46,694 nt of DNA from an uncultured Pseudomonadota bacterium (GTDB lineage Bacteria > Pseudomonadota > Alphaproteobacteria > Rs-D84): positions 1 through 46,694 of the forward strand of contig CASFOK010000019.1 in the NCBI GenBank assembly GCA_949296475.1, in the 5' to 3' direction. Below the pieces are notes generated by a model that was not told the DNA's origin, ran no database searches, and was given only the letters and a program-made list of their open reading frames with translations. Positions 4,249 to 33,409 of the stretch are shown one piece after another. The stretch's first letter is position 1. Every line of letters starts with the position of its first letter. The translations under genes were made by a program, and so were the position numbers.

Positions 4249-4273
4249 AAACCCGCTTGTGCGGGTTTTTTGT
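4249..4273. terminator. Intrinsic terminator between rplS and the converging PagL-like gene
   Basis: Stem AAACCCGC/GCGGGTTT with a TTGT loop followed by a T tract on the plus strand. It ends the ribosomal operon and abuts the stop codon of the minus-strand gene. Confidence 0.85.
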
Positions 4274-4821
4274 TAAAAATTTATGGTGTACCCCATGCCT
4301 ATAAAATTCTGCCCAGAATTTGATTCTGTTAACGTGCCGTTTGAAAAATGTCTTATGAATATTTCAATCGCGTTTTTTTGTGAAATGTGCAACCCGACGA
4401 AAATCTTTTGACCGAATGTAAATTTAGAACTGATTCTGTCCGTCGTTGCTGATTTTATGTATGCGCCAAGGGACGCGCCTGTATAGAATTTGTCGTTGGC
4501 GTATAATATGACGTCTTCTGATATACCAAGAATAATATGTTGGTTATATTTACTAAATGCACCTATGCCTTGGGCGGTTAGTACTTCAATGTTTTGCCTG
4601 CCGTCCAGACCGAAAAAAGTGTTCCCTTGGCTATATTGAATTTCAAAAACATATAAGTTTTCCAGTTTGTCGCGCAGGGATACGCCTGGATACAAAGATA
4701 CTTGGTGCTTTTTGTCATTAAACAGTGTATTATTAGTTGTTGCTTTTGATTGAAAGGTTGTAAAAATTAAGACAAATATTGATAAAATTATAATGAACAT
4801 TATGTTCCATATTTTGTTCAT
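4273..4821 (-). CDS. Acyloxyacyl hydrolase / PagL-like lipid A 3-O-deacylase
   Basis: 182 residues with an N-terminal hydrophobic signal segment (about 5-28) and a C-terminal phenylalanine typical of outer-membrane barrels. The C-terminal block RHFSNGT (H158, S160, N161) matches the PagL His-x-Ser-Asn active site, and the final GMGYTINF fits the last beta strand. PagL removes the 3-O-linked acyl chain of lipid A in the outer membrane. The catalytic acid that follows (Glu in characterised PagL) appears to be Gln171 or Asn172, so activity is uncertain. Twenty bases downstream of the PAP2 gene on the same strand, suggesting one lipid A-remodelling operon. Confidence 0.75.
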   Translation of the reverse strand: MNKIWNIMFIIILSIFVLIFTTFQSKATTNNTLFNDKKHQVSLYPGVSLRDKLENLYVFEIQYSQGNTFFGLDGRQNIEVLTAQGIGAFSKYNQHIILGISEDVILYANDKFYTGASLGAYIKSATTDRISSKFTFGQKIFVGLHISQKNAIEIFIRHFSNGTLTESNSGQNFIGMGYTINF

Positions 4822-4841: not shown

Positions 4842-5372
4842 TTAAAATGTTGTATTAAAATGTACGTTTATTGATTGTGCGTCGGCACTGATGTTTACGT
4901 TTGTTCGTTTGCTTACAAATATCCATGTCATAGCGCTGCTGATTGCAGCGCCGGCAAGTACGTCGTGCAGGTGGTGTTTGTTTGCGTAAATTCTTGAAAA
5001 GCCCGTAAATGACGCTAATAAGTAAGGTACGATGGCTTGCTTTAATCCGTATCTTTTATGTATAAACGTTGCACCTGAAAACGCGGCGGCGGTATGTCCG
5101 CTGGGGAAAGAGTTGTCATCGCTTTTATCGGGGCGTTCTTCTTTTATTAACGTTTTTAATCCCAATACAGTAGTTTCCATTGCCAGAAAAGATGCGGAAA
5201 ATTCCATCGCGCCGCACCAGTCTGTTTCGTTCATTGCCATGCCGAAAGCGTATGCGGGAACTATGACCTGCATATAGTCGCCGATTTCTTCTATGCCGGG
5301 GCCGGCATAGGTCGGAATACAATGCTGTGAAACGACAAACAAGACGGCTGTCGCTTTATAAAAATTTTTCAT
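4842..5372 (-). CDS. PAP2-family phosphatase (lipid phosphatase, possibly lipid A or undecaprenyl-PP)
   Basis: All three PAP2 motifs are present in order: KTLIKEERP (K-x6-RP), SFPSGHTAA (PSGH) and SRIYANKHHLHD (SR-x5-H-x3-D). These form the phosphohistidine active site of membrane phosphatases that act on lipid phosphates at the periplasmic face. I start it at 5372: an AAGGAT ribosome binding site lies upstream and the protein then begins with a signal-like segment (MKNFYKATAVLFVVSQ). The longer reading frame up to 5483 would run through a terminator and structured RNA. About 176 residues with few membrane helices. With the adjacent PagL-like gene, lipid A dephosphorylation (LpxE/LpxF-like) is the best guess; undecaprenyl pyrophosphate is the alternative. 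Confidence 0.85.
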   Translation of the reverse strand: MKNFYKATAVLFVVSQHCIPTYAGPGIEEIGDYMQVIVPAYAFGMAMNETDWCGAMEFSASFLAMETTVLGLKTLIKEERPDKSDDNSFPSGHTAAAFSGATFIHKRYGLKQAIVPYLLASFTGFSRIYANKHHLHDVLAGAAISSAMTWIFVSKRTNVNISADAQSINVHFNTTF

Positions 5373-5390
5373 TGTAATATCCTTTTGATT

Positions 5391-5417
5391 AAAAAAACAC
5401 CCACTGAAAGTAGGTGT
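5391..5417 (-). terminator. Intrinsic terminator 19 nt upstream of the PAP2 start codon
   Basis: On the minus strand ACACCTAC pairs with GTGGGTGT (one G-U pair) around loop TTTCA, followed by seven Ts. It ends the candidate RNA and lies just before the PAP2 ribosome binding site, so it is either the end of a small RNA or an attenuator controlling the two lipid A genes. Confidence 0.75.
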
Positions 5418-5497
5418 CGGGAAGTTAATCAGTCTGATATTACAAAGACCTCGTCGCTTTCCCTGTTCGGTATTGTATGGCAAACGACTTCCCGACT
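5391..5497 (-). ncRNA. Candidate structured RNA or riboswitch-like leader
   Basis: Downstream of a sigma-70-like promoter, the minus strand holds a perfect 10-bp closing helix: GTCGGGAAGT (5496-5487) with ACTTCCCGAC (5425-5416). It encloses a weaker helix CGTTT/AAGCG and a second GGTCT/AGACT, giving a three-way junction of about 80 nt. The intrinsic terminator follows at once, its stem sharing two bases with the closing helix. I compared it by eye with TPP, purine, SAM, glycine, c-di-GMP, 4.5S and RNase P signatures and found no match. The only downstream gene in reach is the PAP2/PagL-like pair. Unassigned; the helices are my own pairing, not a computed fold. Confidence 0.45.
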
Positions 5498-5524
5498 TTT
5501 ATATGTCGGGACTGAAAGTGTCAA
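5498..5524 (-). promoter_or_regulatory. Promoter of the candidate RNA / PAP2 operon
   Basis: Minus strand TTGACA (5524-5519) with TATAAA (5503-5498) at a 15-nt spacing; the overlapping alternatives ATAAAA and TAAAAG give 16 and 17. A start site near 5490 fits the 5' end of the 10-bp helix. Confidence 0.6.
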
Positions 5525-5686
5525 TAATGCATTTCTGCATCAGTAATATCAGGGTGATTAAGCCCTTTTATCTACTAACAGTATGCTGACCCTATTTTTA
5601 TATAGGGATAATATTAATATAAACTTTTTATCGGTTTAGTCAATTTGATTGTGTAATCTTTTTTATATTGCGTAACATTTAACAAT

Positions 5687-33017: not shown

Positions 33018-33025
33018 TTAAAAAC

Positions 33026-33055
33026 TTGCAATTTCCACCTTAAATATTATATAAT
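33026..33055 (+). promoter_or_regulatory. tmRNA promoter
   Basis: TTGCAA (33026-33031), 18-nt spacer, consensus TATAAT (33050-33055), with a predicted start near 33062, just before the tmRNA acceptor piece. Confidence 0.7.
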
Positions 33056-33061
33056 TAGTGC

Positions 33062-33376
33062 TGTCGCGAAAGCGATGATGATTCTGAAACCGTTGCGGAA
33101 TAGTCGTTTTGGACTGGGGGGCGGTACCCCACAGCTCCACCAATAAAACATATGGGGCTGACATAGTTTCGACAGGCGCAGTAAAGGCAAATCGGCTGAA
33201 TTCGACGTGGCGTCGTTAAAAGCCAAATAAAAACTGAATGGCGATAGAATCGCTGCGAACGACAACGTTCGCCTTGCAATGGCTGCCTAAGATGGCTTGG
33301 ATATGATTGGCAATTGTTGATTGTATCCGTTTTGCTTATTGCGGGGTCGCTGGGTGCCCGGCAACAGAAACCCAGC
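33062..33376 (+). ncRNA. ssrA: Circularly permuted (two-piece) tmRNA
   Basis: The acceptor end comes first: a degenerate T-arm TGGGGGGCGGTACCCCA and the 3' end CAGCTCCACCA at 33132-33142. An 11-nt AT-rich intervening loop follows, and then the 5' end GGGGCTGACATAG at 33154. GGGGCTG pairs with CAGCTCC, and the third pair is G-U, the alanine identity element. The coding piece carries the tag frame from the resume codon GCG at 33255 to TAA at 33288-33290, encoding ANDNVRLAMAA. Pseudoknot-like helices and a closing hairpin GCTGGGT/ACCCAGC (33349-33376) end it. This permuted layout is the alphaproteobacterial type. It rescues stalled ribosomes with SmpB. Confidence 0.95.
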
Positions 33377-33409
33377 ATATATATAAATAAAACAAAAAAA
33401 GGCTAAATT

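Follow-up and report, generated by a model that had tools for sequence, protein, structure and literature searches.

According to excerpts of PMC5320573, RNase P cuts the C4 antisense RNA of phages P1 and P7 where helix P1 has its base; the RNA covers a ribosome-binding site with the b′ loop and owes its specificity to the segment a′. The annotated record of phage P1 lists, in order, a1, b1, C4, a2, b2, icd, and ant. Both c4 and c4-a1b1 appear in the excerpted part of Weinberg 2010. The mapped 5′ end of the Xcc1 RNA gives it a length of 88 nucleotides (excerpt of PMC2996969). The available portions of the sRNA-Xcc1 literature, the founding 2011 RNA Biology paper aside, mention neither an a1b1 leader nor a C4 mechanism, and the one paper found to name sRNA-Xcc1 together with C4 lists them as two separate families.

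Here, we analyze an RNA element on the minus strand of a 46,694-nucleotide stretch of DNA (the window), located upstream of genes for a PAP2 phosphatase and the lipid A deacylase PagL. The identification of the element as a C4-like antisense module related to sRNA-Xcc1 is strong. We propose that the module was domesticated in the chromosome and blocks the translation of PAP2-PagL, a reading to which we assign a probability of about 0.72. The element in front of the lipid A modification genes is real and informative, and belongs to a large domesticated set.

Fold and antisense segments of the window RNA

The earlier note described a compact unit of about 107 nucleotides with a 10-bp closing helix, two inner helices, and a terminator touching the closing helix. 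All these helices and the terminator are present on the minus strand (Table 1), and the terminator stem overlaps helix P1 by two bases. The 107-nucleotide core has a minimum free energy of -32.8, compared with -23.2 (sd 3.1) for shuffled sequences (z -3.15), and none of 200 shuffles is equally stable. The minimum-free-energy structure of the core joins P2 and P3 differently from the described helices; P1 and P2 nonetheless covary in relatives. The core of the compact unit stands, but the conserved element extends to about twice the length first described, as it also includes the leader (about 5609-5497), which contains a1, b1, and strand A. The 222-nucleotide unit of leader and core folds with a z of -6.25.

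Table 1 Features of the element and its downstream genes in the window.
Feature	Position	Strand	Basis
C4-like / sRNA-Xcc1-like RNA: P1, P2, P3, then terminator	5391..5497	-	fold, Rfam match, covariation
Helix P1, perfect 10 bp	GTCGGGAAGT 5496-5487 with ACTTCCCGAC 5425-5416	-	
Helix P2	about 5487-5480 with 5457-5451	-	
Helix P3	GGTCT 5450-5446 with AGACT 5435-5431; loop TTGTAATATC	-	
Intrinsic terminator	5391..5417	-	stem 5417-5397 and T-run, from scan
b′ (GTAATATC) in P3 loop	5436..5443	-	complement of b1/b2
a′ (TGATTAA) between P3 and final P1 strand	5425..5431	-	complement of a1/a2
a1 (TTAATCA), loop of hairpin GGGC-CCC	5555..5561	-	perfect complement of a′; cognate test
b1 (GATATTAC)	5543..5550	-	perfect complement of b′; cognate tests
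a2b2 (TTAATCA-AAAG-GATATTAC) over PAP2 ribosome-binding site	5374..5392	-	genome-wide pattern search
Candidate promoter of full transcript, TTGACT-16-TATATT	5616..5643	-	scan; kept in L002/L003
Leader segment t (GTTAGTAG), can pair with terminator 5′ arm	5572..5579	-	full-RNA minimum free energy
Strand A (CCCGAC), alternative partner of P1 5′ strand B (5496-5491)	5505..5510	-	cognate test
PAP2 phosphatase gene, signal peptide-like start	4842..5372	-	Pfam PF01569
PagL lipid A 3-O-deacylase gene, next in probable operon	4273..4821	-	Pfam PF09411

The TTGACA/TATAAA pair at 5524-5519 and 5503-5498, which the earlier note took for the promoter, does not hold up. Its spacer measures 15 nucleotides, its -10 box is missing in the related loci L005 and L006, and a promoter-like pair directly before P1 (-10 at -26 to -6) occurs in 2 of 111 copies, compared with 4% of shuffled sequences. 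Promoter-like pairs are enriched 86-166 nucleotides upstream of P1, that is, upstream of a1 (111 copies). A stronger candidate in the window is TTGACT-16-TATATT at 5643-5616; promoter scan counts there do not exceed those of shuffles.

The antisense stretch of the small RNA reads GTAATATC-AGAC-TGATTAA, composed of b′, a gap of four nucleotides, and a′. The complementary sequence, TTAATCA-N4-GATATTAC, is found both in the leader, as a1b1 (5543-5561), and, with the same four-nucleotide gap, as a2b2, which covers the ribosome-binding site of PAP2 and ends one base before the AUG. The gapped a-b pattern (gap of 2-8 nucleotides) has only three matches in the 0.88-Mb genome, namely a1b1, a2b2, and the small RNA itself, and the reversed control has none, which argues for the C4-type reading. 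The predicted two-site duplexes have energies of -17.8 kcal/mol at the ribosome-binding site and -20.5 kcal/mol in the leader. At the sequence level, the case for a two-site antisense to the start of PAP2 is strong. Loci L002 and L003 keep both a1b1 and a2b2; L005 and L006 keep b2, and their a2 is short of one base. On sequence grounds, the case for putative repression at a2b2 is good in the window and its nearest orthologues but does not extend to the family as a whole.

The order PAP2-PagL is identical in L002, L003, L005, and L006, and the PAP2 proteins of L005 and L006 are 70% identical to that of the window. The same RNA precedes PAP2 relatives in these four loci and in L009, L013, and L014, and a related RNA does so in L004. 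In L007, a PAP2 relative has leader motifs upstream (upstream of 5001) and, as judged by eye, apparently no RNA core, possibly after a deletion. A second PAP2 gene in the genome of the window (L172, G000:C7:69000-72500) is 45% identical and is preceded by an RNA copy of its own, whose a/b code differs. The earlier note supposed control of the lipid A genes, which is plausible, and its alternative of a stand-alone small RNA comes close to our best reading.

We infer the processing of the RNA, its action in trans, and translational repression with its sign as follows. A transcript starting near 5609 would carry the target a1b1 first and then the small RNA. A cut at the 5′ base of P1, made by RNase P in the case of C4, together with the terminator would free a small RNA of about 85-107 nucleotides. 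The P3 loop of this RNA, which holds b′, and the segment a′ beside P1 would pair with a2b2 as a two-site antisense of 8 and 7 bp with four-nucleotide gaps. The duplex would cover the Shine-Dalgarno region and block the translation of PAP2, and of PagL through the operon. In the uncut precursor, the identical leader a1b1 may hold the RNA's own antisense segments through the A.B hairpin and a rod of a1.a′ and b1.b′ pairs, and a1b1 would give each copy a private code. The proposal draws on the RNase P cut and the b′ segment over the ribosome-binding site in the C4 literature (excerpt of PMC5320573), and on the mapped 88-nucleotide Xcc1 RNA (excerpt of PMC2996969).

Pairing code and alternative folds of the family

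Comparison of copies at the sequence level establishes the parts of the element, their pairings, two covarying alternative folds, and the spread of the family. The initial 68 copies comprise the best 60 of the RF02221 matches listed in relatives, seven PAP2 loci, and the window; 65 remain after duplicates and copies with short upstream sequences are dropped, with the P3 loops of 16 placed by hand. In these 65 distinct copies, b′ matches its own upstream 150 nucleotides over a mean of 7.46 nucleotides, compared with 5.04 for the upstream sequences of other copies (0 of 10,000 permutations), and the match reaches at least 7 nucleotides in 51. The values for a′ are 7.05 and 5.53 (0 of 10,000 permutations). 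Later copies were taken from genome G014 (20), from elsewhere (20), and from the genome of the window (seven strong copies besides the window). Among 46 fresh copies, the b′ means are 7.78 and 5.18, with at least 7 nucleotides in 40 (3.5 expected), and the a′ means are 6.28 and 5.43, each with 0 of 20,000 permutations. Within G014 alone, the own leader is the best or tied match for 15 of 19 P3 loops. Whole-region duplex energies separate cognate pairs poorly (rank 1 in 17 of 66), because a1 is similar among copies and GC content differs; exact-match tests of the P3 loop were used instead.

Helix P1 has standard pairs in 578 of 594 cells, compared with 39-63% when the strands are slid, and one of its pairs occurs as GC, TA, AT, and CG across copies. 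These counts anchor both ends of P1, because the MAFFT alignment A2 slips there; A2 contains 40 copies and omits those with a shorter or different P2, as well as L009, L053, L086, and L109. Both sides of P2 pairs are changed in up to 17 of the 40 sequences. The first P1 pair is G-C in 62 of 66 copies, and RCC-like bases are common after P1. The conservation and covariation that the earlier note proposed as a check are strong. The positive cognate tests, the covariation of P1 and P2, and the end-to-end match to RF02221 all argue for the C4-type reading.

The loop that reads the leader is the most variable part of the RNA, with an entropy of 1.60 bits; P1, the P3 stem, and the internal loop have 0.22-0.73 bits, and the covarying P2 1.23-1.40 bits. 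The compared core and downstream stretches of L100 and L109 are identical and their P3 loops differ. The leader common to relatives has a hairpin with the loop TTAATCA, then GATATTAC in the closest ones, and then a C-rich strand; in remoter relatives, the GATATTAC position is altered in step with b′. Such turnover of a matched code would be expected of trans-acting RNAs that avoid cross-reaction, with drift of a cis pairing as an alternative explanation. A metabolite-sensing riboswitch in front of the lipid A genes, a version of the riboswitch proposal of the earlier note, would account for a terminator beside P1, a conserved internal loop (AUACAAYA, 0.29 bits), and two mutually exclusive folds. 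We consider it very improbable: a hypervariable loop complementary to the leader of its own copy fits an antisense code and not a ligand pocket, antisense to a ribosome-binding site fits no ligand model, the downstream genes have export in common rather than a pathway, and the Rfam scans give no match to a riboswitch family.

Pairing with the start site is less general than pairing with the leader. The segment b′ matches its own ribosome-binding site over at least 8 nucleotides in 5 of 61 copies, with 0.69 expected (p 1.5e-4), a further argument for the C4-type reading; start codons were chosen by script, and some of the 61, such as those of L064 and L104, are wrong. The weak energy-based test (49 copies; p 0.03, median rank 27 of 49) and the lack of b2 in most copies count against it. 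The 46 fresh copies have no excess of b2 (z -0.5), and a1b1 is kept there. Since most copies of the family lack b2, their output is uncertain.

Strand A covaries with the 5′ strand of P1 (cognate test of A.B in 110 copies, z 9.2; z 1.5 for a neighboring control stretch) while P1 itself covaries, and both folds therefore seem to be under selection. Helix P1 has a predicted probability of 0.0 in the full uncut RNA of the window, and at most 1 of 97 copies exceeds 0.5. In the isolated 107-nucleotide RNA, P1 is predicted at 0.96 and the terminator at 1.0, which favors the C4-type reading. The difference fits a model in which the active small RNA is released only after leader removal. The predicted absence of P1 from the uncut RNA also counts against the C4-type reading, as the fold of the small RNA is moot if P1 never forms.

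A terminator-like sequence follows in 100 of 113 copies (23% of shuffled sequences). The leader just upstream of a1 matches the terminator arm of its own copy (-130 to -90; z 5.7, 0 of 5000 permutations, 110 copies), as does the stretch from -160 to -120 (z 3.8); the remaining stretches do not exceed 1.0. The z of 5.7 suggests antitermination and speaks for a transcription attenuator, to which we give somewhat less than even odds and which can coexist with the C4-type explanation. In such an attenuator, t, a1, and b1 of the leader would pair with the 3′ part (b′, a′, and a terminator arm) and prevent termination, and small RNA from earlier rounds would bind a1b1 and restore it, making read-through and not translation the output. 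The retention of a1b1 where b2 is lost is in line with this mechanism. For the window, the predicted probability of the terminator rises from 0.47 in the full RNA, or 0.11 when the RNA ends after the stem, to 0.91 when a1b1 is blocked; however, the value hinges on the assumed 5′ end, as it is 0.87 unblocked in an RNA starting at 5636. The family-wide prediction that blocking a1b1 favors the terminator failed: over 97 copies, mean predicted terminator formation does not change (0.80 to 0.82), a separate test gives p 0.51, and a clear effect is confined to some copies, the window among them.

Distribution of the copies and the genes behind them

At E<=10, the RF02221 model has matches in 29 of 59 relatives, frequently more than one per genome; in a sample of 289 genomes from the class, 44 have a match at E<=0.01. 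Our own model, built from 40 copies and yielding rough E-values, finds the RNA in 67 of 78 genomes of the same genus at E<=0.001. Copies number 49 in G014 (about 1.0 Mb), 36 in G379, and 27 in G032; the genome of the window has eight strong copies and a weak one. Used as DNA queries against a phage collection, neither the window nor L138 gave a match. Several G014 copies lie near contig ends, as repeats would.

The first gene behind the RNA appears to bear a signal sequence in 77 of 94 genus copies, compared with 110 of 417 background open reading frames, according to a simple hydrophobicity heuristic rather than a trained predictor and with copies that are non-independent. Without G014 the count is 56 of 72, and outside the genus 3 of 9. 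The 103 evaluated copies exclude nine without a usable open reading frame and two duplicates; L167 was dropped as the same copy as L084. The eight genes in the genome of the window encode PAP2-PagL, the second PAP2, an outer-membrane barrel, two glycosyltransferases, a bacterial PH-domain protein (whose start is further downstream), a DNA methylase, and a protein with a signal-like start and no assignment. Many of the G014 copies L174-L193 precede similar exported proteins with ASIVSRGFLDE-like N termini, and every copy has a loop code of its own.

Among 20 copies from other Alphaproteobacteria, a selection of mostly the best-scoring matches listed in the class sample, a1 is present in 18 and b1 in 17 (at least 6 nucleotides), with weaker but significant signals for a2 (p 0.00015) and b2 (p 0.014). 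The genes after ten phage-type or similar copies include KilA-N (L141), Bro-N (L146), a helix-turn-helix protein, a DNA methylase, and a weak match to Mrr nuclease; four of the ten have no Pfam match. A Rha gene follows another of the ten, located within the genus (L053). The KilA-N, Bro-N, and Rha genes behind non-genus copies and this genus copy agree with the C4-type reading. An N6_N4_Mtase methylase lies behind the RNA in L171, in the genome of the window, and in the distant L156 of the same class, and the Mrr-like match is L147; these neighbors possibly link the RNA to restriction systems.

Phage-type relatives, along with L007, which by eye seems to keep mere leader remnants before PAP2, could also point to a prophage immunity region of which only a remnant without function is left. 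This is highly unlikely, as the pairings are intact and preserved through compensatory change, b2 persists in L005 and L006 at 70% PAP2 identity, and copies occur in 67 of 78 genus genomes.

The C4-type reading ties sRNA-Xcc1, so far discussed for virulence, to the immunity principle of C4. This principle allows targets to be predicted directly, by reading the P3 loop and inspecting the leader and start site of the same copy. The reading also suggests that small genomes converted an antisense device for immunity into a regulator of envelope genes with many copies, and that the copy set is a natural collection of orthogonal RNA switches. We speculate, as a doubtful extension, that gut-type Alphaproteobacteria domesticated a phage immunity RNA and multiplied it into private envelope-gene switches across the genome, with self-sustaining ON and OFF states. 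Each envelope gene would then have its own b′/b1 code without cross-reaction with its neighbors. A silenced, that is, terminated or processed, transcript would yield the silencing RNA, so that a self-sustaining ON or OFF state per gene would be possible, and cell surfaces could vary from cell to cell without a change in DNA.

Comparison with C4, sRNA-Xcc1, and related RNAs

At curated Rfam thresholds, the element has no match. A threshold-free scan aligns it end to end with sRNA-Xcc1 (RF02221, model positions 1-87 of 87; 40.9 bits, E 1.8e-5, or 3.2e-6 in the whole genome). The score stays below the cut-off of 53 bits, which among the 59 relatives only L053 exceeds. The C4 model (RF01695) gives no match in the window region at E<=5 and none in 20 relatives at E<=1, and its cut-off of 45 bits is exceeded in none of the 59 genomes; C4 of phage P1 itself scores 68.8. 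Both results count against the C4-type reading. LPR10 (0.56) and mir-252 (1.4) at the window and SgrS (0.014) in L125 were below cut-offs and taken as chance. The window also contains a permuted alphaproteobacterial tmRNA at 33022-33379 on the plus strand (RF01849, 154 bits), ordinary for the class. The earlier note found no known class for the element and held that a family hit would speak against its proposal; a relative exists in RF02221, if below the family cut-off, and the C4 layout recurs in detail. As a whole, its interpretation is partly supported.

The RNAs of the A. baumannii group 1 are C4-like and, in excerpts of PMC5320573, share several traits with the family described here. They occur in 21 copies, many as here, with a variable specificity segment, and reads are consistent with cutting at GGW. 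They match the Rfam C4 model, unlike the window RNA, and their variable segment is a′, whereas in the window family it is chiefly b′. The excerpts do not mention a copy-by-copy tie to genes of exported proteins.

sRNA-Xcc1 occurs in several copies per genome in Xylella, as does the RNA here (excerpt of PMC12189769). In integron cassettes of Xanthomonas it lies upstream of symE (excerpt of PMC12444791), and the window RNA is also located upstream of a gene; no integron context is seen at the window element.

The window RNA differs from C4 in its longer P2 with a conserved internal loop, in its target PAP2-PagL in place of icd and ant, in the terminator between RNA and gene, and in its many chromosomal copies. 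It has the P1/P2/P3 fold of C4, in which the P3 loop holds b′ and a′ adjoins P1, an exact a2b2 at the ribosome-binding site of the next gene, and a second target, a1b1, in the leader. Like C4 of phage P1, it places a′ before the last P1 strand and b2 at the ribosome-binding site, and, as judged by eye, a strand before P1 is able to pair with the P1 5′ side. The order a1, b1, RNA, a2, b2, gene is common to C4 of phages P1 and P7 and the window element, and its agreement with the annotated phage P1 record argues for the C4-type reading. By its segments and their order, the window RNA appears to work like C4, yet it is no C4 member by score, and by model match sRNA-Xcc1 is its nearer relative.
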